Positions 28,274 to 50,880 of a stretch of 60,914 nucleotides of DNA are shown in pieces; position 1 is the stretch's first letter, and every line of letters begins with the position of its first letter. The notes below the pieces were generated by a model. The model had not been told where the DNA came from, made no database searches, and saw only the letters and a list, made by a program, of their open reading frames with translations. The DNA comes from a bacterium (GTDB lineage Bacteria; ARS69). The stretch is from assembly GCA_025774805.1 (NCBI GenBank), contig JALGZR010000041.1:1-60914 (forward strand), read 5' to 3'. The position numbers were made by a program, and so were the translations under genes.

Positions 28274-28286
28274 CTTCCTCTCCGTG

Positions 28287-29414
28287 TCAGGTGGTGTTGT
28301 GTCGGTACGCCCCGAACCGGTCGTCCCAGTGGCTTCGCACGTACGTGGGCTCCGTGAAGGGGACGCGCGCGACCTCTTCGCCGTCGACGTCCCAACCGAG
28401 AGCCAGGTCGTCCCGGACTTCGAACCTCGTGATGATCCGATCCGTCGCTCCGAAGAGCATGAGCGCACCGAGAAGCCGACGATCGTCCTTCAGGTTCCGG
28501 TACAGGCGTCTCGATGACTCGACCCCGGGGCCGAAGAGCTGCTCCAGGAACTCGCCGGGAACGTGGACCGGGGGGATGTAGTAGACGTTCGGGCCCGTGC
28601 CCGCCTGGGGTAGGAGCGGCAGCGCGAGTCGACGGATCTTCACGATGTAATCCAGCGGGTTGTCCGGGCGCGGATCACCGGCAGAAGTCAGGAATCCGTG
28701 CAGCCGGATCTTCCCGATGCACGATTCCACGCACAGCGCGACCTCTCCCGCCTCTACGCGGGGATAGCAGCCGATGCACTTCTCGCTGACCCGGCTGATC
28801 AGATTGAAGAAGACCTTCTTGTAGGGACAGGCGCGGATGCACTCCTGGTACCCGCGACACCGCTCCTGATCGACGAGAACGATGCCATCCTCACTCCTCT
28901 TGTAGATGGCCTTTCGGGGGCAGGAGGCGAGGCAGGCGGGATGATCGCAGTGGTTGCAGATGCGCGCCAGGTAGAACATCCACAGGGGGTGTACGCCGGA
29001 GAAGTGCTCTCCCAGGTTCACGGCGCCGGTGATGTCGTCCTCACCGAGGTTCGGTGCGGAGTAGTCGTCGACATCCGGACGGTGTCCGCGCGGCGGCTTC
29101 TTCTCGCCGTCGAGCTCGAATACGGTGGGAGTCCGCAGTCCGGTCCGGTCCCACTTCGCCGGCGGGGTCATCTCCATGAGCTTCATGTCCCACGCGAGCG
29201 GATATCCGCCGAACGGCTTGGTCTCGACGTTGTTCCAGAAGACCGTCTCCTGGCCCTTGCCGCTCGTCCAGCAGGTCTTGCAGGCCACGGTGCAGGTCTG
29301 ACACTCGATGCACTTGTTCGTGTCGAAGACGTACGCGACCTGCCGTTCCGGAGCCGGCGCGTCGAACGGGTACTCCATCTCGCGCCCGAGCTGCCAGTTG
29401 AATCGCTTCGGCAC
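28287..29414 (-). CDS. nxrB: Iron-sulfur beta subunit, NxrB/NarH-like
   Basis: 375 residues from GTG 29414 with GGAGG upstream. Four ferredoxin-type cysteine groups are visible: CIECQTCTVACKTC (35-48), CNHCDHPACLASCPRKAIY, CRGYQECIRACPYKK and CIGCYPRVEAGEVALCVESC. They would hold four clusters, as in NarH/NxrB. The opening NWQLGREMEYPF, the WNNVETKPFGGYP segment and PNVYYIPPVHVPGEFLEQLF resemble, from memory, periplasmic nitrite oxidoreductase beta subunits more than NarH. It moves electrons from the molybdenum subunit to the haem subunit. No signal peptide is present, so it would be exported piggy-back with the Tat-signalled alpha subunit. It is shorter than Nitrospira-type NxrB (about 430 residues). 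Confidence 0.85.
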   Translation of the reverse strand: MPKRFNWQLGREMEYPFDAPAPERQVAYVFDTNKCIECQTCTVACKTCWTSGKGQETVFWNNVETKPFGGYPLAWDMKLMEMTPPAKWDRTGLRTPTVFELDGEKKPPRGHRPDVDDYSAPNLGEDDITGAVNLGEHFSGVHPLWMFYLARICNHCDHPACLASCPRKAIYKRSEDGIVLVDQERCRGYQECIRACPYKKVFFNLISRVSEKCIGCYPRVEAGEVALCVESCIGKIRLHGFLTSAGDPRPDNPLDYIVKIRRLALPLLPQAGTGPNVYYIPPVHVPGEFLEQLFGPGVESSRRLYRNLKDDRRLLGALMLFGATDRIITRFEVRDDLALGWDVDGEEVARVPFTEPTYVRSHWDDRFGAYRHNTT

Positions 29415-29429
29415 GGTGGCGCCTCCTCT

Positions 29430-32400
29430 CTATGCGCGCTCCAGGAAATCGCCCCGGATGTACCGGAGCAGCGTCTCGCTCTCGTACGTCGGCCGCAGCC
29501 CCAGCCGCGCGGGGCGCCAGATCCCTTCGCCGGTCTCTCCGCCGGGCTCGGCCCAGACGATTCTCACGATCGACTCTCGGGGCGCGCCCGTTGGGCAGTG
29601 CACGTCGGGGACGAAGCCCTGGGTGATCTTCTGGCCCATGAGCCCCTTCACCGTCAGTGAGTCGGTCATCCACGTGGGCTTCAGCCAGCCCCGCGTGCAG
29701 CTCTGATGGCTGCCGGAGCGGAACAGGGACTGATATCCGGTGTCGGGAGACTTCGCCATGCCGTGGGCGTTCACCTCCGTTCCGCGAACCGAGCCGTACG
29801 TGGCGCCGTACATGTTGTGCCACATGCGCGTCACGCCTCGGGGGGTTCCCGGGTAGTACCGCGCCCTCGCCATCAGCCGGGCCACCTTGTACCACTCGGG
29901 GTTCTTCTTCCAGTCCCGGAAGGGGCGATCGTGGGGATCCGCGTCGATCCACACGTAGTCCCCGTCCTCGACGCCCAGCTCCTTCGCGTCCGCCGGATTC
30001 ACGTCCAGAAACATCTCGTTGATGAACGGTTTCCTCCTGTCCTCGCGATAGATGTCGCCGAACGGACCGAACCAGATCGCCACGATGTCCGTGTCCACGG
30101 CGGTCGTGTGGGCGCCGTGACGGTACTTCGGCGTGTGAAAGACGTATCGATAGCCGTCCTTCCAGAGCGGATGACGGCTCTCCAGAAGCTCGTCCACTCC
30201 GAGAATCACGTGTCGGGCCTGGCGCGCGTCGCCGCCGAGCTCCTCGCGGCCTACTCCGTAGTCCTCGGGAGTCTTCGGCCGCAGCAGCGGATGAGAGGCG
30301 TCGGCCACGATCACGTTCGGCTCGTGGAACGTGGAATCGATGGGCTCCCGGTGGACCACCACGTTCTCGCCGCTGTCGAGGAACTCCTGTTCTTCCCGGT
30401 AGAACTCGAGCCTCCCGGTCTTCGTATACCAGGGCTTGTCTTCATTGCCCTGTTCCCAGGCCCCGACCTTGGGGTAGGTGCGTGTCTCCAGGATTGCCGG
30501 GATTCCGTCGGCGGCCTTCCTCTCCAGGTCCTCGATCCTGTAACCCCGCGTCGCGTTGGAGTGATCGAGAATTCGCTGGATGTACGGCCGCATCCCGCCC
30601 TCGCTCAGGAACTTCCAGTAGCGCGAGTGGCGATCGTCTCCGCTCTCCCTTCCGACGGCCTCGCACAGTCCCGCGGCCACCTCCACGTCACTGCGCGTAT
30701 CGTGGATGCGCGGAAGATCCGTCGTGGGGAATGCGTAGAGGAAGGGATTCGTGACGCTGATGGTCATGTCCGGGTATCTCAGCTCCGCCCAGCTGTCGAC
30801 CGGGAAGACCACGTCCGAATACTCGCAGCTCGCCGTCCACCACCACTCGTTGATCGCGATGAACTCGACCTTCGGAAACGCGTTGACGATCGTGTCGTAG
30901 TGCCCCTTCGCGTTTCCGATCAGGGAATTGGAGTTCGAGACGTGGATCGCCTTCGAGGGCGTCGGTATGTGGGACCGGCCCGTGAGGACTTCGTCCCCCA
31001 CGCGTAGAATCGTGTCTCCGTGATTGAAGTAATGGACCGATTCGGCCTTCCAGTATTTCCGGGCGCGGGCGGGCTTTGCCGCTTCGAGCTCGGGGTCGAA
31101 GGGATCCTCGCCGATGTACTGCCCCAAACCGTTGAAGAAGCTCGCGCGATAGTTGCCCGCGTAGGAACCGATGTTCCCTCCGTAGTGGCCGATGTTTCGC
31201 GTCAGTGAAGCCACCAGGAAGGCGGCCCGGTCCTTCAAATCCCCGTTGAAGAACTGATTGGGTCCCATTCCCATCACGAAGAGCGTCTTCTCCGGATTCG
31301 CCGCAATCTGACGGGCCAACCCCCGGACGGCCGCGGCCTTCGTCCAGGTGATCTTCTCCACGTTGGCCGGAGTGTAGGTGCGGTCCAGCATCTCGCGGGT
31401 CACGTCGAAGACGGTCCGACACGTGACCGTATCCCCCCCGGCCAACCGGACCTCGACCGCCCCCTCCAGGCGGGGATCCACACCGAGGGCCCGGAAGTGC
31501 CGGCCCACCTGGTCGCGGCTCACGGCGACGGGGCGAGCGCGCTTCCGGTCCCAGATCACGTGATCGCCCCATTCCACGCGTTTCGACTCGGTCACGACCG
31601 GACCCGGCTGCTCGTGAATCGAAGGCCCCTTCCCCCCCGCGGGAACGATGACCGTGTTGTTCTCGAGCGTGGCCAGCGGGCGGCCGGCGAAGACCTCCGA
31701 CGCACGCAGGAGGCGGCCCGTGTCCATGCGGACGAGTAGAGGGAGGTCGGTGTGCCCCTTGACGTAGTCCGCGTCGTAGAGCCCCTCCGCGATCAGGACC
31801 TGCGCAATCCCGAGCGCCAGCGCGGGGGTCGTCCCGGGACGCACGACGATCACCTCGTCCCCCTTGCACGACGTGGCGCTGTATTCCGCCGCGATGACCA
31901 CCACCTTCGTGCCCTTCATCCGCGCCTCGGTCAGCCAGTGCGCATCGGGCATCTTCGTCGTGATCCAGTTCATTCCCCAGACGAGGGCGAGGTTCGCGTG
32001 CTCGACGTTGCAGAGGTCGAAGTCCACCGTCTGCTGGCCGGTGACCATGGGGTGTCCGGGGGGCAGATCCGTATGCCACGAATAGTTGTCCCAACCGCGG
32101 GCGCCGACGGAGCCTTCCCGCCCGCGGCCCCGGATCTTGTCGTCCAGGAGCGCCATGGCGTTGGCGATGCGGTACTGGGCGAAGATGCGGGTCATGCCGA
32201 GGGGCGGCATGCCTCCCCGAAACTTCAAGACCTGGGTTCCGGCTCCGCCCGTCGCATCGACCATGAGCGGATCGTATCCCTGGGCGAGCAGGCGCTTTCT
32301 TCCCTCCTCTCCGGAGTACGTTCGGGCGATGTCGACGATTGCCCGCCCGGAGAGAGCGAACGCCTCGTCCCATTCTACGGGGACCCAGGCGTCGTTCCCC

Positions 32401-32942
32401 CGCTGCAGATACTTGCGGTCGACCGCCCCGGTCGTGGGGTCCCGGGGCATGCCGTCCTCCACCCACTGCTTGAAGCCGCGGCGGGCGAGCGGCCGCTTGC
32501 ACCGTCGGTCCCCGTAGAAGCGGCGAACGAGCGCCAATCCCTTCTGACAGCAGCGAGGGTCCCAGCGCTGGCCCGCGCGGTTGCCGTGGAGATCGGTCGC
32601 CTTCTGGTATCCGTAGGAGGGGGCGATGCGAGTCACCACCCCGTTCTTCACGTACCCACGGAGAAGACAGTTGTGAGTGTCGTTCGGGGCGCAGAGGAAC
32701 GTGAAGGAGGAGTCGGACCGGTAGAGATCGCGGTAAACGCTCTCCCAGTCCCGGTTCGGGTAGTCGGTCAGCGGGTTGTGGACCTGGAGGGGTCGCAGGA
32801 ACTCGGCCGCGGCCGCCGCCTCCCGGGCCAGAAACACCGAGCCCGCTCCGGCGCCCGCCATTTGGAAGAGGAAGCGTCGTCGGGAGATCCCGTTTTCGTT
32901 GCGCTCGGAGCTCCCTCGAACGTCTCGGGCGCCGGATATCAT
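29430..32942 (-). CDS. nxrA: Molybdopterin catalytic alpha subunit, periplasmic NxrA/NarG-like (type II DMSO reductase family)
   Basis: 1,170 residues from ATG 32942, with AAGGAGG eight bases upstream. A twin-arginine signal ([20 protein letters not shown], residues 20-39) shows folded export. The N-terminal cluster motif is C84-APN-D88-THN-C92 with a further Cys131, so an Asp stands where the second Cys of the NarG-type motif usually is. [10 protein letters not shown] gives Asp292 as the likely molybdenum ligand. [25 protein letters not shown] and [13 protein letters not shown] match my memory of nitrite oxidoreductase alpha subunits. It may oxidise nitrite or reduce nitrate or another oxyanion; direction cannot be told from sequence. 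It heads the alpha-beta-gamma-chaperone operon behind an Rrf2 regulator. Confidence 0.85.
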
Positions 32943-33027
32943 CTCGGAACCTCCTTCGGTTCGACCTCTTGCACGACGGATGCCCTCGGTCGCGCCCGGG
33001 GCGCGAGCGTCCAGGGCCACGCCCCCG

Positions 33028-33426
33028 TCACGCGATCAAGTCGCCTATCCGAGTCTCGGACAGCATCTCCTCGTGGATCTCGCGGATTCGCTCCCAGTAG
33101 GGATGGAGTGGACAGGGATTCCGGGCATCGCAGTCCGACCGGCCAAGCAGGCAGTCCCGGGGATCCGCGCGGTTCGCGCCGTCGATCATCGTCACGATGT
33201 GCAGGATCGGACGCTTCAGCGCCTTGCGCCGCAGCTCGAAGCCACCGCCCCAGCCCTTCTCGGCGTCGACGATTCCCTGCTTGCGAAGCTGATTCAGGAT
33301 CTTCGAGAGGTAGTTGGAGGGCATGCCGGTCTCCCGCGCGATCTCGTCGACGGTCGTGCGGGTCCCGATCCTCGTCGCCAGGTAGCCCAGGGTTTGCAGG
33401 GCGTAGCGCGCCGTCTGACTGATCAT
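33028..33426 (-). CDS. Rrf2-family transcription regulator with three cysteines
   Basis: 132 residues. Winged-helix N-terminus (MISQTARYALQTLGYLATRI, TVDEIARETGMPSNYLSKIL) and Cys92, Cys99 and Cys105 in CLLGRSDCDARNPC. This is the iron-sulfur or redox-sensing pattern of Rrf2 proteins such as NsrR and IscR, with the common RDCLLGR/CPLH surroundings. NsrR-type members respond to nitric oxide, and others to cluster status or oxygen. It is the first gene before nxrA (85-bp gap, same strand), so it probably controls this operon and itself. A good -35/-10 pair lies 20 bp upstream of the start codon. Confidence 0.88.
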   Translation of the reverse strand: MISQTARYALQTLGYLATRIGTRTTVDEIARETGMPSNYLSKILNQLRKQGIVDAEKGWGGGFELRRKALKRPILHIVTMIDGANRADPRDCLLGRSDCDARNPCPLHPYWERIREIHEEMLSETRIGDLIA

Positions 33427-36877: not shown

Positions 36878-39235
36878 ATGGACAAGATCATCGACTGGCC
36901 CGAGGGTGACGTTTTCCACGAGGTGCCGCTGCTGCTCCTGAGGAGCACGGTGCTCTTTCCTCTCCAGGTCGCGTCGGTGCAGATCGCGACCAAGGCGAAC
37001 CTCCGGCTCCTGGAGGACCACGCCGACCCCCGAGCGATCGTCGGAGCCGGGGTGTTGGTGGACCCGGACGGGCCCGCCAACCGGCGCAATCTCGGCCCGA
37101 TCGCCGTGGCCTGCCGGATTCTGAACCGAATCGACATGGGCGGGGGCTCGGCCCAGGTCGTGTTGCAGGGGCTGCGGCGCATCCGGATCCGGGAAGTTGT
37201 CAGATCCCGACCCTACCTGCGGACCCGGGCCGAGGGGCTCGACGAGTCCGAAGGAGACCGTCCCGTGGGGCGGGAGCGCGTCACCCGGGTGGTCCGGCTG
37301 GTCCGGACCCTGGTCGAGACCGACGATCGCTACCCGGACGAGCTGGCCAAGGTGGTCGAGATGAACCACGAGAACGGATCCCGGTGCGCCGATCTCGTGG
37401 CCGATCTGATTCAGTTCGGATACGTGGAGAAGAGACAGCTCCTCGAGACCGAGGACGTCTCGGTGCGACTCGACCGGTTGGCGGAACTCGTCCAACGGGA
37501 GATCGCCCGCTCCAAGGTCGCCCGGGAGGTCCAGACGAAGACGGCGATCTCGATCGACCGCACCCGGCGGGAGTCTTTGCTTCGGGAGCAGCTCGAAATC
37601 ATCCGCCGCGAGCTGGAAGAGCTGGACCCGGCCGAGGCCGAGATCGCGGAGCTGGCCCGGAAGACGGAGGCGGCCCCCCTGCCGCCGATCGTGGCCGAAG
37701 AGGCGCGGCGCGAGGTGCAAAGGCTCCGCCACGGCCCCACCCGCCATCACGAGGGGTTCTCGATTCGCGCCTACGTCGACTGGGTCCTCTCGATGCCGTG
37801 GGAGGCGACGACGAAGGATCGACTCGATCTGCGGCGGGCACGAAGAATGGTGGACAAGCGCTATCTCGGTCTCGGGACGGCGAGGGACCGCCTCTTGGAG
37901 TTTCTCGCCGTCCGCAAGCTCGGGGGAAACGCGCGTCTTCCCCTTCTCGTCATTCTGGGACCGTCGGGGACCGGCCGGACGAGTCTCGCGAGCACGGTCG
38001 CCGAGGTGCTGGGCCGACGCTTCGTGCGCATCCCCATGCAGGGAATCCACGACGCGGCGGAGATCCGGGGGCATCGCCGTACCGCGGCCGCGGCGCGACC
38101 GGGGCGCGTTCTCGACGGCCTGCGCACGGCCGGCGTGCGGAATCCGGTCATCCTGATCGACCACCTCGATCGGCTCGAGGCCCGCATCGGCGAGCCGATG
38201 CATTCGCTGGTCGACGCGCTCCATCCCGAGCGCAACGGCCAGTTCCTCGATCACTACCTGGGAGTGCCGTTCGATCTGTCGGAGGTGCTGTTCGTCGTGA
38301 CGGCGAACGTGGAGGAGGAGATTCCCCGCGACCTCTGGTCCTTCATGCACACCATCGAGATGCCGGGATACACGGAGCCCGTCAAGCGGGCCATCGTGCG
38401 CGAGAGCCTGTGGCCCGAGCTCGTCGAGGGGCACGGCATCTCCCGGTTCGACGTTCGACTGACGAACACCGCCGTCACGCGGATCATCCGTCACTACACG
38501 AGGGAGGCCGGAGTCCGTGAGCTCAGGCTCCATCTCCGGACGATCTGCCGGCGGATCGCGGTTCAAGTGGCGGTGCGGGGGGGGCGCCGTCTGTCGATCG
38601 GAGTCCGAAACCTCGAGGAGTATCTGGGCAAGCCGCTCTATGTCGAAGACCCCACGGCGCGCGAGCCGAAGGTCGGCGCCGCGACCGGCCTGGCCTGGAC
38701 CGAGGCGGGAGGGGTGCTGCTTCCGATCGAGGCCCTGATCATGCCGGGGGAGGGATACGTGATGGTCACCGGGATGCTCGGTGAGGTCATGGAGGAGTCG
38801 GTGGAGGCCGCGCTCTCCTACGTGCGCTCGCGGGGCGCGGAACTGAAGATCCCGGCGGACACCCTCTACGAGAGGGACCTGCACATCCACTTCCCCGAGG
38901 GGGCGATCCCGAAGGACGGCCCCTCGGCGGGCATCGCCGCCGCCACCACGATCGCGTCGCTGCTCTCGGGCCGCCCCGTGCGTCACGACATCGCCATGAC
39001 CGGCGAGATCTCGCTGCAGGGCTGGGTGCTGCCGGTGGGCGGAATCCGCGAAAAGGTCCTCGCGGCGTACCGGGCCGGCATCAAACGCGTCATCCTTCCG
39101 AAGGGCAACGAGAGCGATCTCGACGACGTGCCCCGAGACGTCCGCGGGAAGATGCGGTTCGATCTGGTGGGGGACGTCGGCGAAGTCTTCGGCATCGCGC
39201 TGAAGAAGAAACCGGTGAGCCGGCCCGGGAAGTAG
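36878..39235 (+). CDS. Lon-family protease with degenerate ATPase motifs and intact Ser-Lys dyad
   Basis: 785 residues, the size of bacterial Lon. N-terminal LonN domain (PLLLLRSTVLFPLQVASVQI), coiled-coil arm (about 205-260), AAA+ region (350-560) and Lon protease domain (595-775). In the AAA+ part, Walker A is GPSGTGRTS with Arg367 for the essential Lys. Walker B is ILIDHLD (425-431) with His429 for Glu. The LRDRM arginine-finger segment is LWSFM (486-490). Sensor-1 Asn in VTANVE and the GVREL sensor-2 remain. The protease part keeps Ser683 (PKDGPSAG) and Lys726 (GGIREKVLAA). It should bind and cut peptides but probably cannot unfold substrates using ATP. It lies 8 bp before polB, in one transcript. 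Confidence 0.88.
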   Translation: MDKIIDWPEGDVFHEVPLLLLRSTVLFPLQVASVQIATKANLRLLEDHADPRAIVGAGVLVDPDGPANRRNLGPIAVACRILNRIDMGGGSAQVVLQGLRRIRIREVVRSRPYLRTRAEGLDESEGDRPVGRERVTRVVRLVRTLVETDDRYPDELAKVVEMNHENGSRCADLVADLIQFGYVEKRQLLETEDVSVRLDRLAELVQREIARSKVAREVQTKTAISIDRTRRESLLREQLEIIRRELEELDPAEAEIAELARKTEAAPLPPIVAEEARREVQRLRHGPTRHHEGFSIRAYVDWVLSMPWEATTKDRLDLRRARRMVDKRYLGLGTARDRLLEFLAVRKLGGNARLPLLVILGPSGTGRTSLASTVAEVLGRRFVRIPMQGIHDAAEIRGHRRTAAAARPGRVLDGLRTAGVRNPVILIDHLDRLEARIGEPMHSLVDALHPERNGQFLDHYLGVPFDLSEVLFVVTANVEEEIPRDLWSFMHTIEMPGYTEPVKRAIVRESLWPELVEGHGISRFDVRLTNTAVTRIIRHYTREAGVRELRLHLRTICRRIAVQVAVRGGRRLSIGVRNLEEYLGKPLYVEDPTAREPKVGAATGLAWTEAGGVLLPIEALIMPGEGYVMVTGMLGEVMEESVEAALSYVRSRGAELKIPADTLYERDLHIHFPEGAIPKDGPSAGIAAATTIASLLSGRPVRHDIAMTGEISLQGWVLPVGGIREKVLAAYRAGIKRVILPKGNESDLDDVPRDVRGKMRFDLVGDVGEVFGIALKKKPVSRPGK

Positions 39236-39243
39236 GATGCGCC

Positions 39244-41607
39244 GTGCCGATCGGATTCGTGCTCCAGCCCACCTACCGTATCGAGTCCGGACGCCCCGTC
39301 GTGCACCTCTGGGGGAAGCTCGAGGACGGGCGCTCGTTCCTGGTGCGCGACCGGCGGCAGGTGCCCCGTTTCTGGATCCGGAGCCGGGACGCGGAGGCGG
39401 CCCGAGAGCGGGGCGCGCGAATCGCTCCCGACGACCGGGAACGGGTCGACATGTCCGGGAATCCGGTCGTGCCGGTCGAGGTCGACGTTCCGCCCGATGT
39501 TCCGCCGGTTCGCGAGCGGCTGTCCGCCGCGGGAATCCCGACCTTCGAGGCGGACGTCCGCTTCGCGATCCGCTACCTCGTCGACCGGGGGGTTCGGGGC
39601 TCCTGCGAGATCGTGGGGGAGGAGCGGCCGGGCGAGGGGGTCGACGTCGTCTTCGAAGATCCCGAAGTGCGCGCTGCCGGCGGGACGCTGCGGCTTTCGG
39701 TTCTCTCGATCGACATCGAGACCGATCCGCGGGCGGAGCGACTGCTCTCGGTTGCGCTCGTGGGCGGCGGAGCGGACGAGGTGCTTCTCCTCGCGCCGCC
39801 CGACGAAGCCCCCCCGGAGGGATCGGTCGCCTGCGGTTCGGAGCGCGAGCTCCTGCAGCGCTTCGTGCAACGGGTCCGGGAGATCGACCCGGACGTTCTC
39901 ACCGGATGGAACCTGGTCGACTTCGACCTGACCGTGCTGGCCGACCTCGCGACGCGTCGTGGGGTCCGCCTCGCGATCGGACGCGGTCGGGAGCCGTTGC
40001 GCCTCCGGCCGTCCTCGTCGCCCCGCGTGCAACGGGAGGCTCAGGTTCCGGGCCGCGTCGTGCTCGACGGGATCGAGCTCGTGCGCGGAGCGTTTCTCCG
40101 GTACGAGAGCTTCTCCCTCGACTCCGTCTCCCGGGAGGTCCTCGGAGAGGCGAAGACGATGACCGGTCCCGGCCGGGCCGACGCGATCTTCGAGGCCTGG
40201 CGAACCGATCGCGCGCGATTCGTCGAATACAACCGGAACGACGCCCGGCTCGTCCTCGGCATTCTGGAGAAGCTCCGGCTCGTGGAGCTGGCCGTCGAGC
40301 GCAGCCTCCTGACCGGGCTCCCGCCGAACCGCGTGGCGGCGAGCGTCGCCTCGTTCGATTTCCTGTACCTGACCGAGCTCGGGAAGCGGGGCGTCGTGGC
40401 GCCGACCGCGGGAGAACCGGATCGCCCGATGCCGCAGACCGGCGGCACCGTGTTCGAACCGGAGTCGGGTCTCCACGAGAACGTGGTCGTTCTCGACTTC
40501 AAGAGCCTGTACCCGAGCATCATCCGCACGTTCAACATCGATCCGTGGGGACGCGCGCGCGAAGGGAGCGCCCGATCCGATGCGGTGCCGGAGGCCGACC
40601 CCGCCGTCGCCCCGGACGCCGAATCCGATCCGGTGGTCGCTCCGAACGGGGTCCGGTTCCGGCGCGAGCCGGGAATCCTGCCCGGCATCCTCGACGAGCT
40701 GTTCCCTCGGCGGGAGAAGGCGAAGTCGGGGGGCGACGACGTGGCGAGCCAGGCGATCAAGATCCTGATGAACTCGTTCTACGGCGTACTTGGTACGCCC
40801 GCCTGTCGTTTCGCGTCCCCCGATCTCGCGAACGCGATCACCGGCTTCGGGCGGACCCTCCTGGTCTGGTCCCGGGACCGGCTCGAGGCGAAGGGCTTTC
40901 GGGTGCTCTACGGCGACACGGACAGCCTCTTCGTGGATTCGGCGGCCGCGACCGCCGAGGAGGCGCGGCGGATCGGCGCACGGCTCGTCGCGGAGCTGAA
41001 CCGGGAGCTCGCCGTGCACGTGCGCGACACCTGGAGAGTGGAGAGCCGGCTGGAGCTCGAGTTCGAGACGCTGTACCGGAAGCTCCTGCTGCCCGAGATG
41101 CGGCACGGTGCCGGCGGCGCCCGGAAGCGGTACGCCGGGCTCGCGCAGATCGGCTCCGAATCGGTCGTCGTGTTCACGGGAATGGAGGTCGTGCGCCGCG
41201 ACTGGACAGAGCTCGCGAAGAGCGTGCAGCGGGAGCTCTATACCCGCCTGTTCACCGACCGGCCGGTGGAGGAGTACCTGCGGGACGTGGTCGCCCGCGT
41301 GCGTGCGGGCGAGCTGGACGATCTCCTCGTCTACCGCAAGGGGCTCCGCAAGAGACTGGAGGCCTACACCGCCTCGACACCGCCGCACGTCGCGGCCGCC
41401 CGCAAGATGAAGGGAAAACCCGGCTCCCTGATCGAGTACGTCATCACCGCGGACGGTCCCGAGCCGGTCGCGGAGCGAACGTCTCCGATCGATCGGGAGC
41501 ACTACGTCCAGAAGCAGGTGCGGCCGGTGGCGGAACCCGTCATCGCGATCCTCGAGCTGGACTTCGACGTGATCGTGGGGGACGATCGGCAGCTCGATCT
41601 GTTCTGA
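39244..41607 (+). CDS. polB: DNA polymerase II, family B
   Basis: 787 residues from GTG 39244, nearly the same length as E. coli Pol II (783). The 3'-5' exonuclease is intact: SIDIETDP (ExoI), TGWNLVDFDL (ExoII), YNRNDARL (ExoIII). Polymerase motifs: DFKSLYPSII (A), KILMNSFYGVLG (B), YGDTDSLF (C). The chain ends RQLDLF, a good sliding-clamp-binding motif of the QLxLF type at the very C-terminus. It is a replicative-restart or translesion DNA polymerase, induced by SOS in E. coli; no LexA site is obvious here. It follows the Lon-like gene by 8 bp with TAGGATG as a ribosome site, so both are probably made together. Confidence 0.95.
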   Translation: MPIGFVLQPTYRIESGRPVVHLWGKLEDGRSFLVRDRRQVPRFWIRSRDAEAARERGARIAPDDRERVDMSGNPVVPVEVDVPPDVPPVRERLSAAGIPTFEADVRFAIRYLVDRGVRGSCEIVGEERPGEGVDVVFEDPEVRAAGGTLRLSVLSIDIETDPRAERLLSVALVGGGADEVLLLAPPDEAPPEGSVACGSERELLQRFVQRVREIDPDVLTGWNLVDFDLTVLADLATRRGVRLAIGRGREPLRLRPSSSPRVQREAQVPGRVVLDGIELVRGAFLRYESFSLDSVSREVLGEAKTMTGPGRADAIFEAWRTDRARFVEYNRNDARLVLGILEKLRLVELAVERSLLTGLPPNRVAASVASFDFLYLTELGKRGVVAPTAGEPDRPMPQTGGTVFEPESGLHENVVVLDFKSLYPSIIRTFNIDPWGRAREGSARSDAVPEADPAVAPDAESDPVVAPNGVRFRREPGILPGILDELFPRREKAKSGGDDVASQAIKILMNSFYGVLGTPACRFASPDLANAITGFGRTLLVWSRDRLEAKGFRVLYGDTDSLFVDSAAATAEEARRIGARLVAELNRELAVHVRDTWRVESRLELEFETLYRKLLLPEMRHGAGGARKRYAGLAQIGSESVVVFTGMEVVRRDWTELAKSVQRELYTRLFTDRPVEEYLRDVVARVRAGELDDLLVYRKGLRKRLEAYTASTPPHVAAARKMKGKPGSLIEYVITADGPEPVAERTSPIDREHYVQKQVRPVAEPVIAILELDFDVIVGDDRQLDLF

Positions 41608-43675: not shown

Positions 43676-44728
43676 ATGACCGTAGGGATCGTCGGGTACG
43701 GCGCCTTCGTTCCCCGCCACCGGATCAAGGTGGAGGAGATCGCGAAGGTGTGGGGAGCCGATGCACCCAGCTACAAGAAGGGACTGGAGCTGAGGGAGAA
43801 GTCGGTGCCGGCGCCGGACGAGGACGTCATCACCATGTCGGTGGAGGCGGCCCGCAACGCCTTCGCCCGGAGCGGGGGAACGGATCCCCGGGACATCGGG
43901 GCGATCTACATCGGCTCGGAGTCGCATCCCTACGCCGTGAAGCCGTCCGGCACCGTTCTGGGGGAGGCCATCGGCGCCACGCCCCACGTCCACGTGGCCG
44001 ACTTCGAGTTCGCGTGCAAGGCGGGTTCCGAGGCGATGTTCGTGGTGGCCGGTCTGGTGGCGTCGGGGTACATCCCGTGCGGGCTCGCGATCGGCGCCGA
44101 CACCTCCCAGGGCGCTCCGGGCGACGCTCTCGAGTACTCGGCCGCGGCCGGATCGGCGGCGTTCATCATCGGCAGCGAGAACCTCGTGGCGACGATGGAC
44201 CACACGCACTCGTTCATGACCGACACGCCCGACTTCTGGCGGCGCGAGTACCAGCACTACCCACAGCACGGCGGTCGGTTCACGGGGATGCCCGCGTACT
44301 TCAAGCACGTCGAGGGCGCCTCCCGGGCCTTGCTGGAGAAGACCGGGACGAAGCCCTCCGACTTCGAATACGCCGTCTTCCATCAGCCGAACGGGAAGTT
44401 CCCGATGACGGTGGGGAAGAGGCTGGGGTTCAAGCGCGAGCAGATGGAGACCGGATGGCTCGTTCCCACGCTGGGCAACACGTACTCCGGAGCCTCCCCG
44501 ATCGGGCTCACCGCGATCCTGGACGTCGCCAAGCCCGGAGACCGGATCTTCATGTGCTCGTACGGCTCAGGGTCCGGGAGCGACGCGTTCATCTTCACGG
44601 TGACGGATCGGATCAAGGAGGTGCAGGGTCTCGCCGTCCGTACGCGCGAGATGCTGGATCACGACCAGGTCTACCTGGAGTACGGCGAGTACGCGAAGTT
44701 CCGCCACAAGATCCTGAAGGCGCAGTAG
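43676..44728 (+). CDS. Archaeal-type hydroxymethylglutaryl-CoA synthase
   Basis: 350 residues from ATG 43676, with AAAGGAG upstream. It condenses acetyl-CoA with acetoacetyl-CoA to HMG-CoA. Catalytic residues by position are Glu82 (YIGSESHPYAVKPS), Cys114 (DFEFACKAGSEAM) and His236 (AVFHQPNGKFP). The length and the FEFACKAG motif match the archaeal-type enzyme rather than bacterial MvaS (about 390 residues, different motif). In archaea this enzyme forms a complex with a thiolase and a DUF35 protein that channels acetoacetyl-CoA, and exactly those two genes follow here. It heads a seven-gene operon. It serves either the mevalonate route or the reversible interconversion with leucine-degradation intermediates. 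Confidence 0.88.
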   Translation: MTVGIVGYGAFVPRHRIKVEEIAKVWGADAPSYKKGLELREKSVPAPDEDVITMSVEAARNAFARSGGTDPRDIGAIYIGSESHPYAVKPSGTVLGEAIGATPHVHVADFEFACKAGSEAMFVVAGLVASGYIPCGLAIGADTSQGAPGDALEYSAAAGSAAFIIGSENLVATMDHTHSFMTDTPDFWRREYQHYPQHGGRFTGMPAYFKHVEGASRALLEKTGTKPSDFEYAVFHQPNGKFPMTVGKRLGFKREQMETGWLVPTLGNTYSGASPIGLTAILDVAKPGDRIFMCSYGSGSGSDAFIFTVTDRIKEVQGLAVRTREMLDHDQVYLEYGEYAKFRHKILKAQ

Positions 44729-44737
44729 GAGTTGACG

Positions 44738-45895
44738 ATGCGAGATGTCGCGATTATCGGCGTCGGACTGACGAAGTGCGGCGAGATCTGGGAGAAATCG
44801 CTGCGCGACCTCTACGTGGAGGCCGCGCTCGGAGCGATCAAGGACTCCGGAGTGGATCACGTCGACTCCATGTACGTGGGCTGCATGTCGAGCGGGCTCT
44901 TCGTGGGTCAGGAGCACCTCGGCGCGCTCATGGCGGACTACCTGGGCCAGTGCCCGATCCCGGCGACGCGGGTGGAGTCCGCCTGCGCTTCGGGGGGAAC
45001 GGCCATGCGGATGGGCGCCCTCGACGTGGCGAGCGGCCAGAGCGACGTCGTTCTGGTCGGCGGAGTCGAGAAGATGACGGACGTGGGCGGCGACGAGGCC
45101 ACCTACGCTCTGGCCACCGCGGCGGACCAGGAGTGGGAGGGATTCAACGGAGCCACGTTCCCCGGTCTCTACGCCATGATGGCGATCGCCCACATGCACC
45201 AGTACGGGACGACTTCGGAACAGCTGGCCGCCGTGGCGGTGAAGAACCACGACAACGGCTCCCGGAATCCGAACGCCCAGTTCCCGGCCAAGATCTCGGT
45301 CGACGCGGTGCTCAACTCGGTGATGGTGGCCGACCCTCTGCACATCCTGGACTGCTCTCCCATCACCGACGGAGCCGCGGCGGTGATTCTCTGCCCGGCG
45401 GACCGCGCGAAAGAGCTCACGAAAAAGACGCCCATCCGGATCCTCGGCGTCGGACACGCGAGCGACTCGATCGCGCTCCACTCTCGTAAGAACCTGGCCG
45501 TGCTCGACGGCGTCGCCCGGGCGGCGGACCTCGCGTACACGGCCGCCGGTAAGGGACCGAAGGACATCGACGTGTGCGAGGTCCACGACTGCTTCACGAT
45601 CGCCGAGATCATGGCGACCGAAGCGCTCGGCTTTTTCGAGCAGGGCAAGGGGGGACCCGGCGTCGAGGCGGGGGAGACCTCTCCGGGAGGGCGAATCCCG
45701 GTCAACCCGAGCGGGGGTCTGAAGTCGAAGGGCCATCCCGTCGGCGCCACCGGCGTGGCGCAGGTGATCGAGATCGTGGAGCAGCTCCGCGGCGAGGCGG
45801 GGGAGCGACAGGTGAAGAACGCCCGAGTGGGCATGACCCAGAACATGGGCGGTACCGGGGCGAGCTCGGTCGTCCACATCCTGGAGGCGATGTGA
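44738..45895 (+). CDS. Archaeal-type acetoacetyl-CoA thiolase (SCP-x-like)
   Basis: 385 residues from ATG 44738, with TAGGAG seven bases upstream. Reversible condensation of two acetyl-CoA to acetoacetyl-CoA. The nucleophile is Cys83 in ESACASGG, the other active-site motifs are VHDCF (HDCF block) and [14 protein letters not shown], and MGGTG stands in place of the usual CGGG/CxG end motif, as in SCP-x-type thiolases. The family partners with the HMG-CoA synthase upstream (9 bp away) and the DUF35 protein downstream (1 bp away). In the archaeal complex these share a CoA-binding site, so substrate channelling is expected here. Bacterial-type thiolases (AtoB) differ in the N-terminal motif. Confidence 0.88.
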
Positions 45896-45896
45896 C

Positions 45897-46295
45897 ATGC
45901 CGACGGCCCGAGGATGGAGGGAGTACCCCCAGCGCTATCGGTACGAGGCCGCGGTCTGCGCGAAGTGCAGCAAGTGGCATTTCCCCCCCCGACTCGTGTG
46001 CGACGAGTGCGGGGGCGAGAAGTTCGAGACCAAGACCATGGCGCGCACCGGGACGATCCTGACGTACACGGTCATCCGGGTGCCGCCCGCGCCCATGAAG
46101 GATCAGGCGCCGTACGCCCTGGCCGTGGTCCAGATGGACGACGGACCGCGACTCACCACCCAGGTCGCCGACTGGAAGGAGGGCGAGCTCGCGCCGGGAC
46201 AGAAGGTCCGGCTCGAGTTCCGCCGCATCACCAGCGACGGGGAGGCGGGGACGATCAACTACGGCTACAAGGCCGTGCCCGTTCGAGTGTCGTAG
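45897..46295 (+). CDS. DUF35 zinc-ribbon/OB-fold protein, scaffold of the thiolase-HMG-CoA synthase complex
   Basis: 132 residues from ATG 45897, one base after the thiolase stop. A rubredoxin-like zinc ribbon carries CAKC and CDEC (about residues 21-39), followed by an OB-fold that begins RTGTILTYTVIRVPPAPMKD, the normal acyl-CoA-binding layout of DUF35. In methanogen complexes this protein bridges thiolase and HMG-CoA synthase. The gene order here is identical (synthase, thiolase, DUF35). No enzymatic activity is expected. Confidence 0.88.
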   Translation: MPTARGWREYPQRYRYEAAVCAKCSKWHFPPRLVCDECGGEKFETKTMARTGTILTYTVIRVPPAPMKDQAPYALAVVQMDDGPRLTTQVADWKEGELAPGQKVRLEFRRITSDGEAGTINYGYKAVPVRVS

Positions 46296-46302
46296 GCTCG
46301 CC

Positions 46303-47097
46303 GTGACAGCGGAGCTCGACACCGTTCGAGTGGAGCGCGAGGAAACCGTCGCGCGGGTGGTCCTCGACCGCCCCGAGATCCGCAACGCATTCAACGAGAC
46401 GATGATCCGGGAGCTCCTTGAGGTCCTCGCGTCCCTGCGGGACGAGGGGGGCCTCCGTGTGCTCGTCCTCACCGGAGAGGGCAAGGCCTTCTGCGCGGGG
46501 GCGGATCTCCACTGGATGCGTAGCGTGGTCGACTACACGCGCGAGGAGAGCTACCGGGACTCCCTCAACCTCGCGCACCTCATGCGCGAGCTCTACACGT
46601 TTCCGAAGCCGGTCGTCGGACGGATCAACGGCTCCGCCATCGGTGGGGGCACCGGCCTCGTGGCCGCGTGCGACATCGCGCTGGCGGCCGAGGAGGCCGT
46701 GTTCAGCTTCTCGGAAGTGAAGATCGGGCTCGTGCCGGCCGTGATCTCGCCCTACGTCCTGCGAAGGGTGGGTGAGAGGTACGGCCGGGAGTATTTTTTG
46801 ACCGGGAAGCGGCTGTCGGCCCGGGAGGCGGAGGCCTGCGGGCTCGTCAACCGCGTGGTTCCGCGGGCGGACCTCGACGCCGAGGTGGACTCCTGCGTGG
46901 GGGACCTGGCGACCAGCGGGCCCCGGGCCCTGGCCGCCGCCAAGCACTTGGTGCGGACGGTCTCCGAGATGTCCCTGGACGAGGCCGGACCGGCCACGGC
47001 CGAGATGATCACCGAGCTGAGAATGAGCGAGGAAGGGCAGGAGGGGATGCGGGCCTTTCTGGAGCGGCGCCGGCCCGCCTGGCAGATCGAGGACTGA
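46303..47097 (+). CDS. Enoyl-CoA hydratase family, methylglutaconyl-CoA hydratase (LiuC)-like
   Basis: 264 residues from GTG 46303. Crotonase fold with oxyanion-hole segments GKAFCAGADLHWMR and INGSAIGGGTGLVAACDIAL. The stretch VKIGLVPAVISPYVLRRVGE then EYFLTGKRLSAREA is what I recall as characteristic of LiuC/AUH-type 3-methylglutaconyl-CoA hydratases. That enzyme interconverts 3-methylglutaconyl-CoA and HMG-CoA. In this operon it would connect the HMG-CoA synthase product with the biotin-dependent carboxylase encoded next. The assignment within the broad crotonase family is probable rather than certain. Confidence 0.78.
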   Translation: MTAELDTVRVEREETVARVVLDRPEIRNAFNETMIRELLEVLASLRDEGGLRVLVLTGEGKAFCAGADLHWMRSVVDYTREESYRDSLNLAHLMRELYTFPKPVVGRINGSAIGGGTGLVAACDIALAAEEAVFSFSEVKIGLVPAVISPYVLRRVGERYGREYFLTGKRLSAREAEACGLVNRVVPRADLDAEVDSCVGDLATSGPRALAAAKHLVRTVSEMSLDEAGPATAEMITELRMSEEGQEGMRAFLERRRPAWQIED

Positions 47098-47126
47098 GGC
47101 GCACGAGGCGGGAGCGCGGAGCCGAC

Positions 47127-48521
47127 GTGTTCAAGAGCATACTGATCGCCAATCGAGGGGAGATCGCGCTGCGCGTGATCCGTGCGTGTCGCGAGATGGG
47201 GATCGAGTCGGTGGCGGTCTACTCGACGGCCGACGCGGACGCCACGCCGGCCGAAGAGGCCGACCACGCCGTCTGCATCGGCGGGGCCAAGAGCGAGCAG
47301 AGCTATCTCAACATGGAGGCCATTCTCCAGGCCGCCGAGCAGTACCAAGTCAAGGCGATCCACCCAGGGTACGGCTTTCTGGCCGAGAACGCGCTCTTCG
47401 CCGAGCGGTGCCGCCAGCACAAGCTCACCTTCATCGGCCCGTCCGCGCACGTGATCCGTCTCATGGGGGACAAGGCCACGGCGCGACGCACCATGCGGGC
47501 CGCCGGGCTGCCGGTCGTTCCGGGCTCGGAGGGGGTCGTGGCTAATGCGGAAGCGGCGCTGTCTCTCGCGACGGAGACCGGATTTCCCGTGCTGCTCAAG
47601 GCCACGGCCGGGGGCGGCGGCAAGGGAATGCGCATCTGCCGCGACGAGGAGTCCCTGCGCACGAACTTCGAGCACGCCTCCCTGGAGGCGGAGAAGGCGT
47701 TCGGCAACGCCGGCCTCTATGTCGAGAGGTTCATCGAGCGCGGCCGGCACATCGAATTCCAGTTCCTCGCGGACAGCTTCGGCTCGGCGATCCACCTGGG
47801 CGAGCGAGAGTGCTCGGTCCAGCGAAGCCACCAGAAGCTCGTCGAGGAGTCGCCCTCGCCCGTCATCGACGCCGGGATCCGACACGACATGGGGGAAAAA
47901 GTCCGGGCGGCGGTTCGGGCCATCGGGTACGTCGGGGCCGGGACCATGGAGTTCCTGCGCGACGGGGAGGGCAACCTCTACTTCATGGAAGTGAACACGC
48001 GCCTCCAGGTGGAGCACCCGGTCACCGAGATGGTCACCGGGCACGATCTCGTCCGGGAGCAGATCCGGATCGCGGCGAATCACCCGCTCTCCATTCGACA
48101 GGAGGGTGTAGAGATCACGGGGCACGCCATCGAGTGCCGCGTCAACGCCGAGGACCCCTTCGACGACTTCCGCCCCTGTCCCGGGAAGGTCGAGACGTTC
48201 GAGCCTCCGGCCGAGGCAAGCGGAGTCGAGATCCGGGTGGATACGTACCTTCAGTCGGGCCGGCGCATTCCGTTCCACTACGACTCTCTGGTCTGCAAGC
48301 TGATTGCGTGCGGCGCGACCCGGGAGGAGACGCGTCTCGGAATGCTGGAAGCGCTGGGAAGGTTCCGCGTCGAGGGCATCAAGACGACCATCCCGATTCA
48401 CGAGAAGATCCTCGCGGATCCGCGCTTCGCCTCGGGAACCTACGACACCGCGCTCGTGGGGGAGCTGCTGGAAGAGAACGGGCGGGTGGGGGCGGCCGCC
48501 CCCGGGACGTCCGGGAGGTAG
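47127..48521 (+). CDS. Biotin carboxylase subunit of an acyl-CoA carboxylase
   Basis: 464 residues from GTG 47127. ATP-grasp biotin carboxylase: opening FKSILIANRGEIALRVIRAC, glycine-rich ATP loop KATAGGGGKGMRI, metal site MEVNTRLQVEHPVTE, and the HPGYGFLAENA segment. It carboxylates biotin on the carrier protein encoded two genes downstream. The length matches stand-alone AccC. The short tail (GRVGAAAPGTSGR) contains no biotinyl domain, unlike MccA/PccA, so the carrier is separate. Close linkage to a LiuC-like hydratase favours a methylcrotonyl-CoA-type carboxylase, but acetyl- or propionyl-CoA cannot be excluded. Confidence 0.9.
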   Translation: MFKSILIANRGEIALRVIRACREMGIESVAVYSTADADATPAEEADHAVCIGGAKSEQSYLNMEAILQAAEQYQVKAIHPGYGFLAENALFAERCRQHKLTFIGPSAHVIRLMGDKATARRTMRAAGLPVVPGSEGVVANAEAALSLATETGFPVLLKATAGGGGKGMRICRDEESLRTNFEHASLEAEKAFGNAGLYVERFIERGRHIEFQFLADSFGSAIHLGERECSVQRSHQKLVEESPSPVIDAGIRHDMGEKVRAAVRAIGYVGAGTMEFLRDGEGNLYFMEVNTRLQVEHPVTEMVTGHDLVREQIRIAANHPLSIRQEGVEITGHAIECRVNAEDPFDDFRPCPGKVETFEPPAEASGVEIRVDTYLQSGRRIPFHYDSLVCKLIACGATREETRLGMLEALGRFRVEGIKTTIPIHEKILADPRFASGTYDTALVGELLEENGRVGAAAPGTSGR

Positions 48522-48524
48522 ACG

Positions 48525-50270
48525 ATGGCGAAGGTGGTACTGCATCCCGTCGGGACCTCCGTGGACGAGGCGGCCGATCCGCACGACTACCGGAGCAATC
48601 TCGATCGCATGCACGACCTCAACCGTCAGCTCGACGAGCGGCGCGAGGAGGTCCGCCGCGGGTGGGGACCCAAGTACGTGGAACGGGTCCACGCCAAGGA
48701 GAAGATGACGACCTGGGAGCGGATCGAGGCGCTCAAGGACCCGGGATCGAAGATCTTCCCCATCGGAACGTTCGTGAACTGGGGGCTCGAGTTCGGCGAC
48801 GACGCGAAGCGCACCTCGCCGGCCGCGGGCGTGATCACGGCGTTCGTCCGCGTGGAGGGCCGCTACGCGGTGGTCATCGCCAACGACAACACGGTGGCGT
48901 CCGGGTCGTGGTGGCCGCGCACCCCGGAGAAGATCGAGCGCGCGCAGGAGGTGGCGCTCCGACTCAAGGTGCCGGTGGTCTACCTCGTCGACTGCTCCGG
49001 TCTCTTCCTGCCCGAGCAGTCGCACACGTTCCCCGGCAAGACGGGGGCGGGTCACATCTTCAAGATGAACTCGCTCCTCTCGGCCGAGCACGTACCGCAG
49101 ATCGCCGGCGTGTTCGGCGACTGTATCGCGGGCGGCGGGTACATGCCGATCATCTCGGACAAGGTCTACATGACGGAGCAGGCGTACATGGTGATCGCCG
49201 GAGCCGCTCTGGTCAAAGGGGGGAAGTCGCAGCACATCACCTCGCTCACGATCGGCGGTCCCGACGTCCACGTCCACGTCTCGAACTGCGCGGACGAGCG
49301 CGTTCCCGACGACATGGCGCTTCTTCTCAAGATCCGCCGGGAGATGTCGACGCTGCCGACCTCGGCCGTGGGCTACTACCGCTTCGGAGCCGATCCGGTC
49401 GAGCCCCGCTTTTCCGTCGGGGAGATCGACGGCCTCCTGCCCGTCAATCACCGGGTGGTCTACGACATCCGCCAGGTCATCGCCCGCATCGTGGACAGCT
49501 CGCTCTTCGGGGAGGTGCTCGGCCACACCGGCGCCGAGATGGTGACCGGGATCGCGCGGATCGGGGGGCTCTTCGTCGGCATCATCGCCAACAACCAGGA
49601 GCTCGAGCCGCACCCGCGGGTCAAGGGCGCGACGCGACCGGGCGGTCTTCTCTACCGGGAGGGGATCGCGAAGATCTCCACCTTCTCCCGCGCCTGCAAC
49701 GACGACGGCATTCCCATCCTCTGGCTGCAGGACATCTCCGGATTCGACATCGGGCCGGAGGCGGAGAAGGAGGGGCTTCTGGGCTACGGCTCGAATCTCA
49801 TCTATACGAACTCCACGAACGCCGTGCCCATGATCACGGTTCTACTGCGGAAGGCGTCGGGCGCCGGGTACTACGCGATGACCGGGCTGCCCTACGATCC
49901 CGTGGTGCAGCTCTCGACGCCGATCACGCGGCAGGCCGTCATGGAGGGGCGAACGCTCGCCATCGGCACGTTCAACGCGAAGCTCGACGACAACTTCCAG
50001 ATCATGACGAAGGATCCCGAGGAGCGGGCCAAGATCGAGGCGGGAATGAAGGCGGTCGAGGATCGCATCACCGGGGACATGGATCCCTACCGGGCCGCCC
50101 GCCAGATGGACACCGACGAGATCGTCGCCACGCACGAGCTGCGGGACTATCTGAGCGCCGTCGTCGAGATGTGCTACCAGAGCATCGGCTACCGGCGCGT
50201 CAAGAACCCGAGGATCTGGTCGGTCCACGATCTGAACGTGCTCACGGACTTCCTCGTCACCCAGGAGTAG
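48525..50270 (+). CDS. Carboxyltransferase subunit of acyl-CoA carboxylase (MccB / GcdA-like)
   Basis: 581 residues from ATG 48525. Two crotonase-like halves: the N-half with [20 protein letters not shown] and [20 protein letters not shown], the C-half with [20 protein letters not shown] and [20 protein letters not shown]. Length and both segments resemble the alpha subunit of glutaconyl-CoA decarboxylase (about 587 residues) as well as MccB-type carboxyltransferases. It moves the carboxyl group between biotin and an acyl-CoA, possibly 3-methylcrotonyl-CoA to 3-methylglutaconyl-CoA. Since no membrane decarboxylase beta subunit is encoded here and a biotin carboxylase is, the ATP-driven carboxylating direction is likelier. 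Spacing is 3 bp to the gene before and 4 bp to the gene after. Confidence 0.85.
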
Positions 50271-50274
50271 CCCC

Positions 50275-50880
50275 GTGCGCGACCGCACGCTCATCGCCCG
50301 CGTCGAAGAGGAGGACGCGAAAGAACCGACGATTCTGGTACGCTCTCCCGCGGTCGGAATCGTGGACCGGGTGCCGGCCCCCGGCTCCTACGTCGACCCG
50401 TCGCGCGGGTTCCTGACGCTGCGCATCCTGGGGCAGCGCCACTCCCTGCGCCTTCCCCGCGAGGTCCGGGGCTGGGTGACCGAGAGGATGATCGAGGACA
50501 CGTTCATCCCCATCGAGTTCGGGCAGCCCCTGATGCGTCTGAGCACCGCCCACGCCCCCGATGCCGTCTCGGAGTCCTCCGAGGACTCCCGCCCGGCCGG
50601 GACCGCGGGAACGGAGGAGGGACTCGTTCCGGTGACCGCCCCCTCGCAGGGCGTCTTCTACCGGCGGCCGAATCCGGAGACCCCCCCGTACGTCGAAGAG
50701 GGAAGCGAGGTCGGTTCGGGATCCGTCCTCGGGCTGGTGGAGGTCATGAAGTGTTTCCACCAGATCTCGTACGGCGGGCCCGGGCTGCCGGAGAAGGGCA
50801 CCGTGGCCCGCATCCTCGTCGAGGACAGCGCCGAAGTGGAGTTCGGCCAGGCGCTCTTCCTCATTCGGCCGGCGGGCTGA
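50275..50880 (+). CDS. Biotin carboxyl carrier protein with duplicated biotinyl-like domain
   Basis: 201 residues from GTG 50275. The C-terminal domain (about 120-200) has [16 protein letters not shown], with Lys159 as the biotinylated residue in the VMK motif. The N-terminal domain (about 20-90) has the same fold rhythm ([20 protein letters not shown] ... EFGQPLMRL), but its hairpin reads LGQRHSLRL and lacks the MK motif, so it should not carry biotin. A Ser/Asp/Pro-rich linker joins them. It carries CO2 between the biotin carboxylase and carboxyltransferase made from the two genes upstream. It closes the operon, and a terminator follows 23 bp later. Confidence 0.8.

Follow-up and report, generated by a model that had tools for sequence, protein, structure and literature searches.

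An archaeal-type HMG-CoA synthase complex in one bacterial operon with a gamma-lineage carboxylase: a possible lyase-free link between HMG-CoA and acetyl-CoA

Introduction

What use has a bacterium for an archaeal-type 3-hydroxy-3-methylglutaryl-CoA (HMG-CoA) synthase when neither HMG-CoA reductase nor HMG-CoA lyase can be found in its genome? The question is raised by a stretch of 60,914 nucleotides (contig JALGZR010000041.1 of assembly GCA_025774805.1, GTDB lineage ARS69), here called the window. Seven plus-strand genes at positions 43676-50880 encode, in this order, an HMG-CoA synthase (HMGS), a thiolase (THL) and a DUF35 protein, which we refer to together as the trio, followed by a LiuC-type enoyl-CoA hydratase (ECH), a biotin carboxylase (BC), a carboxyltransferase (CT) and a biotin carrier protein (BCCP). 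A search of the literature, covering open-access publications, yielded no report of this gene set.

We propose, at a probability of roughly 0.4, that the operon is an HMG-CoA node through which branched-chain acyl-CoA metabolism is connected to acetyl-CoA with no need of HMG-CoA lyase, the trio running in reverse. Cleavage of HMG-CoA by the synthase complex is in our assessment the most likely option, and it was not among the readings offered by an earlier note on this DNA. Functions are assigned from sequence throughout.

Results

The gene set described in the earlier note stands. All seven genes are open reading frames whose families were confirmed with profile hidden Markov models, and they follow one another with gaps of 9, 1, 7, 29, 3 and 4 bases (Table 1). 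The note had spoken of a fused set, which is true of the operon but not of the genes, which are separate.

The trio is of the archaeal kind. HMGS scored 534.8 bits against NF003274 and 521.4 bits against TIGR00748 (cut-off 353), and the thiolase 554 bits against PRK06064 (cut-off 420) and 563.7 bits against NF053570, slightly under the cut-off of 600. For all three subunits the best solved match is the thiolase/HMGS/DUF35 complex of Methanothermococcus thermolithotrophicus (6ESQ), with 389.5 bits for the thiolase, 450.6 for HMGS and 92.7 for DUF35; in the alignments to it the EFACKAG stretch of HMGS is identical, and the DUF35 zinc ribbon has kept its CxxC pairs. The three genes are contiguous and match the chains of the archaeal complex, but here the complex lies in a bacterial genome without HMG-CoA reductase, where it does not serve mevalonate synthesis but shares an operon with a carboxylase and a hydratase. 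Users of the mevalonate and methylerythritol phosphate (MEP) pathways are intermixed in the HMGS phylogeny (3 changes), so that one complex is in use in organisms of either type and the phylogeny gives no direction for the trio.

The genome that contains the window (G000) measures 5.1 Mb in 284 contigs and is 96.33% complete; gene absences given here rest on draft genomes. HMG-CoA reductase was not found in it (no match in a PF00368 search). HMG-CoA lyase is likewise missing, as the earlier note had supposed: the best NF004283 score was 21.7 bits, and the sole PF00682 protein is isopropylmalate/homocitrate synthase-like and falls under the cut-offs. DXR of the MEP pathway is present (465 bits). 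The CoA-transferase family PF01144, to which we take AibA and AibB of the myxobacterial isovaleryl-CoA route to belong, had no match in G000. The genome thus offers neither the classical ending of leucine breakdown nor AibA/AibB, and, with the reductase also missing, no recognised enzyme other than the trio connects HMG-CoA with acetyl-CoA. Judged by the predicted genes, HMG-CoA has no recognised use in G000 besides the trio and the hydratase.

The earlier note had suggested that leucine carbon might pass into mevalonate. Leucine carbon and acetyl-CoA would then feed mevalonate and isoprenoids, much as leucine has been shown to flow to sterols through HMG-CoA in trypanosomes (PMC5993337), and two relatives fit this picture. 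In G001 (L007) and G017 (L008) the trio adjoins HMG-CoA reductase, a diphosphomevalonate decarboxylase (276 bits with the NCBIfam model in G001) and a mevalonate-kinase-like gene, and both genomes are without DXR; mevalonate genes other than the G001 decarboxylase were assigned by similarity or by eye, and the trio of G017 is on a different contig from its CT. The window genome has no HMG-CoA reductase and does have DXR, so that mevalonate is not the product there and this role is ruled out for it; apart from the mevalonate users, most of the other genomes with the trio likewise lack the reductase and have DXR. As an account of the operon the proposal is very improbable, while the node probably does supply mevalonate in relatives that have the mevalonate pathway.

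The substrate of the carboxylase depends on the identity of the CT, which the earlier note had called methylcrotonyl-CoA-type. In phmmer searches, beta subunits of 3-methylcrotonyl-CoA carboxylase (MCC) and GcdA, of the glutaconyl-CoA decarboxylase sodium pump, were about equally near. In a maximum-likelihood tree 44 family members grouped as a single clade, placed towards GcdA and separate from both MCC and propionyl-CoA carboxylase (PCC), the GcdA branch being long and the join of the clade to it uncertain. The CT grouped neither with known MCC beta subunits nor with PCC beta or AccA/AccD; the tree rules out an identity as PCC or acetyl-CoA carboxylase (ACC), and G000 has a separate PCC, whose best solved matches are all PCC, as well as AccA/AccD. 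A predicted model of moderate confidence (mean pLDDT 66.9, pTM 0.74) aligned over its whole length with GcdA (3glm, Z 29.9) and with MCC and geranyl-CoA carboxylase (GCC) at Z 23-29, with root mean square deviations of 3-4 Å, against about 22-24 Å and Z under 19 for full PCC and ACC beta chains. This arrangement of the N and C domains has been associated with enzymes that carboxylate the gamma carbon of an unsaturated acyl-CoA (PMC4673880).

Published sequence rules for MCC comprise an N-terminal helix of about 30 residues that is absent in PCC and Phe191 after a three-residue insertion (PMC4673880). The CT has the extended helix (residues 19-45 in the model), with 59 residues before the anchor compared with 28 in PCC 1vrg (aligned part only, the 1vrg row being a local match), and it has the insertion. 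At the position of Phe191 it carries Ala175, and Ala is found there in 81/81 family members. With this split outcome on the MCC rules, we assign the CT to the gamma-carboxylating lineage but not to MCC; on sequence and model, it belongs to an uncharacterised clade nearest GcdA within that lineage. The label given in the earlier note thus holds for the MCC/GCC/GcdA-type domain arrangement, outside PCC and ACC, but not for membership of the MCC clade, and the MCC Phe is lacking. GcdA (PDB 1PIX, 3GF3) is the nearest CT by both tree and fold and has in common with it a segment of the C-terminal domain that MCC lacks; unlike the decarboxylase pump, however, the window operon includes a BC subunit, which implies ATP-driven carboxylation.

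These features raise the possibility of a different gamma-substrate, for instance crotonyl-CoA, which would give glutaconyl-CoA, or a 3-methyl-enoyl-CoA of greater length, such as occurs in the degradation of terpenes. The product would then not be 3-methylglutaconyl-CoA, and the trio would serve a related but different acid. Besides the place of the CT outside the MCC clade, nearest GcdA, the small Ala175 speaks for this, since MCC with the F191G exchange loses activity on 3-methylcrotonyl-CoA and gains activity on geranyl-CoA (PMC4673880). Benzoyl-CoA ring-cleavage genes in G000 are a possible source of glutaryl- and glutaconyl-CoA, and in G090 an AtuA-like gene, recognised by eye, lies beside the trio. 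Yet GcdA has Gly at the Phe191 position and handles the small crotonyl group, and the carboxylase is linked to HMG-CoA synthase and a LiuC-type hydratase. Furthermore, in seven lyase-bearing genomes (G003, G004, G005, G007, G019, G021 and G025) the window-type CT is the only non-PCC/ACC CT by Pfam score, which makes it the natural MCC candidate there. On balance we regard another substrate as rather unlikely.

CT clusters of a liu-like appearance, in which CT, acyl-CoA dehydrogenase (ACAD), ECH and BC genes stand together, occur in Myxococcota and others (L123, L124, L126 and L127; Nannocystis among them). They were considered as canonical MCC and rejected: their CTs are without the insertion and the Phe and so are GCC-like by the published rule, and the argument drawn from them, by which the window-type enzyme in those genomes would be something other than MCC, fell.

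The best NCBIfam models for the hydratase are PRK07468 and PRK05674 (gamma-carboxygeranoyl-CoA hydratase), both under cut-off. It is 48% identical to the hydratase of a CT-ECH-BC-lyase cluster in G039, a genome of the same family, with which it lies on a joint branch of 19 rows (SH-aLRT 99). The branch includes other trio-linked hydratases, while dienoyl-CoA hydratase and other sampled crotonases fall outside. This placement beside the hydratase of a leucine cluster that bears HMG-CoA lyase agrees with the LiuC-like character given in the earlier note, and we regard the protein as a candidate 3-methylglutaconyl-CoA hydratase. In the two trees, then, the CT stands away from propionyl- and acetyl-CoA carboxylases and the hydratase within the LiuC-like group, as that note had supposed.

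The BC matches PRK08591 with 638.6 bits (cut-off 597). In the carrier, PF00364 covers residues 120-197 only, and the EVMK biotinylation site is found only in the second of the two beta domains of the predicted model, which matches 1bdo. The first biotinyl-like domain is degenerate, has no lysine motif and is conserved across the family. This degenerate domain might stand in for the BT domain, which is missing.

Compared with the canonical leucine pathway (MCC, LiuC and HMG-CoA lyase, encoded by the liu cluster), the operon likewise brings a gamma-lineage carboxylase together with a LiuC-type hydratase. It differs in that the CT belongs to another clade without the MCC Phe191, BC and carrier are separate chains, and HMG-CoA lyase is absent from the genome, its place in the operon being taken by the trio.

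The same combination recurs in relatives. When bacterial genomes were scanned with the CT, 80 loci were recovered, or 81 with the window. Members of the CT family are found in BC-CT-BCCP sets across many phyla, and thiolase and DUF35 genes are close by in 14 of the 81 loci, from several phyla and with varying gene order and orientation. Archaeal-type HMGS exceeded the cut-off in only 4 of the 59 other genomes of the relatives search, and the arrangement is thus not due to chance. Four gene contexts are seen repeatedly. Loci L007 and L010 are window-like. In Aminicenantes, KSB1 and others the order is HMGS-THL-DUF35-BC-CT-BCCP-ACAD-ECH, some of these loci being broken by contig ends. In G010 (L037) BC-CT-BCCP stands beside a divergent HMGS-THL-DUF35-ECH block followed by KorA/KorB-like genes (by eye), a 2-oxoacid:ferredoxin oxidoreductase-like pair, and G022 has the same block, KorA/KorB-like genes included, on another contig. 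BC-CT-BCCP without the trio is found mostly in Myxococcota and Acidobacteria. The labels KorA/KorB, mevalonate kinase, IDI, AtuA and IcmF in other loci were given by eye or by similarity.

Gene content was compared across 36 genomes with a window-type CT, the trio of G006 and G011 being counted from THL and DUF35 genes at contig starts. The trio is present in 22 and HMG-CoA lyase, over cut-off, in 14; five genomes have both and five neither. Lyase is rarer in trio genomes (5/22) than in CT genomes without the trio (9/14; Fisher p 0.018), a weak comparison, since some of the genomes were selected for having the trio and they are not independent of one another. A rule of trio or lyase, never both, fails on the five trio genomes that hold both. 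Of the 36 genomes, 11 have the trio with neither reductase nor lyase over the cut-off, namely G000 and ten others (G008, G009, G010, G012, G013, G014, G015, G022, G024 and G032). In these ten the trio is mostly on the contig of the carboxylase, G032 having them on different contigs, and all 11 except G012 have DXR.

Within the family of G000, the trio was not found in the complete genome G037. In G039 it stands alone (HMGS 86% identical), and the genome also has a separate CT-ECH-BC-HMG-CoA lyase cluster with an MCC-type CT, and a CoA-transferase pair; HMG-CoA reductase is absent. A trio that stands alone, apart from an MCC-LiuC-lyase cluster and in a genome without reductase, suggests a non-mevalonate role that needs no carboxylase nearby. 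HMG-CoA from the trio might accordingly go to an unrecognised product, or to a non-homologous lyase or hydrolase, co-location reflecting regulation only. We consider this quite unlikely, because the trio, a LiuC-type hydratase and a gamma-type carboxylase are paired repeatedly across phyla and gene orders, and because the trio has been paired a second time with another type of CT. This independent pairing, in the 1.6 Mb genome G060 (L170:4410-10985), joins the trio to another BC, a crotonase and a CT that has PCC beta as its best solved match.

Separately, in G090 (L171:7210-11853) HMGS, thiolase and DUF35 genes lie behind two AtuA-like genes, recognised by eye and without an NCBIfam match.

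Table 1. Genes of the operon, with positions in the window and the basis of each assignment
Feature	Position	Strand	Basis
HMG-CoA synthase, archaeal type	43676..44728	+	TIGR00748, NF003274; best PDB match 6esq chain I
Acetoacetyl-CoA thiolase, archaeal complex type	44738..45895	+	NF053570, PF22691; best PDB match 6esq chain A
DUF35 bridging protein, zinc ribbon and OB fold	45897..46295	+	PF01796, PF12172; best PDB match 6esq chain E
LiuC-type enoyl-CoA hydratase, candidate 3-methylglutaconyl-CoA hydratase	46303..47097	+	PF00378; tree grouping
Biotin carboxylase subunit, carrier domain not fused	47127..48521	+	PRK08591; Biotin_carb_N, CPSase_L_D2, Biotin_carb_C
Carboxyltransferase, uncharacterised clade nearest GcdA, gamma-carboxylating (MCC/GCC/GcdA) lineage	48525..50270	+	PF01039; tree; model
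Biotin carrier protein, two tandem biotinyl-like domains	50275..50880	+	PF00364; alignment; model

Discussion

In the route that we favour, BC-CT-BCCP would carboxylate the gamma carbon of 3-methylcrotonyl-CoA at the expense of ATP, and the LiuC-type hydratase would add water to the resulting 3-methylglutaconyl-CoA to give HMG-CoA. Running backwards with free CoA, the trio would then split HMG-CoA into acetyl-CoA and acetoacetyl-CoA, followed by thiolysis of the latter, so that HMG-CoA and two CoA would yield three acetyl-CoA. The reversed trio would save the thioester that goes into acetoacetate when the lyase is used, and its organisation as a complex would avoid the release of acetoacetyl-CoA. 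While the gene content, its conservation in several phyla and the lack of detectable reductase, lyase and CoA-transferase in G000 are shown, we infer which substrate the carboxylase takes and, most of all, which way the trio runs. An ATP-using carboxylase together with a LiuC-type hydratase makes a flux from 3-methylcrotonyl-CoA through 3-methylglutaconyl-CoA to HMG-CoA reasonable, and with neither lyase nor reductase the remaining exit for HMG-CoA is the trio in reverse. Taken more widely, the same scheme may represent a way in which several bacterial phyla finish the breakdown of leucine or isovalerate without a lyase, and in which a reversed trio cleaves HMG-CoA supplied by a carboxylase of an undescribed clade.

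By rough thioester energies, overall cleavage of HMG-CoA would lie near equilibrium, favourable thiolysis offsetting the unfavourable reversal of HMGS. Neighbouring genes fit breakdown: in Aminicenantes-type loci the carboxylase is accompanied by an acyl-CoA dehydrogenase, and in G010 and G022 KorA/KorB-like genes lie next to the trio and hydratase. G000 has acyl-CoA dehydrogenase candidates, the best of which is 52% identical to the dehydrogenase encoded in the Aminicenantes operons. There is also precedent for the reversal of a condensing CoA enzyme, since Si-citrate synthase cleaves citrate in the reversed oxidative tricarboxylic acid (TCA) cycle (PMC11861179), and retro-aldol activity is known in relatives of the thiolase-DUF35 pair (PMC12329534).

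Several points weigh against this proposal. HMGS is generally regarded as irreversible in practice, and the bridge from leucine in trypanosomes has been called unidirectional (PMC5993337). The nearest relatives of the trio with adjacent mevalonate genes, whose HMGS is 80-82% identical, presumably run it forwards. The retention of trio, lyase and CoA-transferase without a reductase in G039 means that the trio is no simple replacement for the lyase there. The CT carries Ala in place of the MCC marker Phe191, and the dehydrogenase and oxidoreductase neighbours could be working in the opposite sense. The absences, moreover, come from a 96% complete assembly in 284 contigs and from a genome set partly picked for the trio.

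The main competing explanation is anabolic. The trio would make HMG-CoA, the LiuC-type hydratase would dehydrate it, and the carboxylase in reverse would deliver 3-methylcrotonyl-CoA and then isovaleryl-CoA for iso-fatty acids or leucine, an Aib-like route with the carboxylase replacing AibA/AibB. Synthesis is the known direction of the trio, and the CT has its nearest neighbour in GcdA, a decarboxylating enzyme. With lyase and reductase missing, any HMG-CoA that the trio makes would need an outlet, and the Aib route itself is documented in Myxococcus (PMC7756340). A full BC subunit, on the other hand, fits ATP-consuming carboxylation, the reversal of which would have to form ATP from a decarboxylation, and the presence of acyl-CoA dehydrogenase and 2-oxoacid oxidoreductase genes nearby is more simply explained by oxidation. 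HMG-CoA, 3-methylglutaconyl-CoA and 3-methylcrotonyl-CoA are intermediates of the Myxococcus xanthus route too, but in the window BC and its partners stand in the place of AibA/AibB and HMGS is of the archaeal kind. The myxobacterial route as such, which the earlier note had offered as a parallel, is ruled out for G000, where the lack of any PF01144 match leaves no AibA/AibB-family protein for its defining step. Overall, we judge the anabolic direction unlikely, although it is the strongest of the alternatives.

If HMG-CoA cleavage by the trio is correct, an enzyme known from textbooks as a one-way step of isoprenoid synthesis would be catabolic in MEP-pathway bacteria, comparable to reversed citrate synthase. 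Genomes that seem incomplete for want of HMG-CoA lyase would gain a full route of leucine breakdown, archaeal-type HMGS would have a function where HMG-CoA reductase is missing, and a new clade of carboxylases close to MCC and GcdA would be defined. Should the trio run forwards instead, the operon would be a second solution to making isovaleryl-CoA from acetyl-CoA.

Other features of the genome and the window

Elsewhere in G000, the best isovaleryl-CoA-dehydrogenase-like gene (contig C10, L201) adjoins an apparent fused isobutyryl-CoA mutase, IcmF, recognised by eye. On contig C270 (L183:890-3996, minus strand), cyclohexadienoyl-CoA hydratase (TIGR03189), Oah (TIGR03200) and Had (TIGR03201) all exceed their cut-offs; these are the benzoyl-CoA ring-cleavage genes mentioned above, and their predicted functions point to anaerobic aromatic degradation.

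The flanks of the operon are unrelated to it, with a beta-helix protein upstream and an open reading frame without a family downstream, both on the minus strand. Further away, the minus strand at 26580-33426 has a molybdopterin oxidoreductase, a 4Fe-4S protein, a nitrate reductase delta-like protein and an Rrf2 regulator in one block, a respiratory molybdenum-enzyme operon. At 36878-41607 on the plus strand, a Lon protease gene adjoins that of a family B DNA polymerase of the polymerase II type in the same direction.

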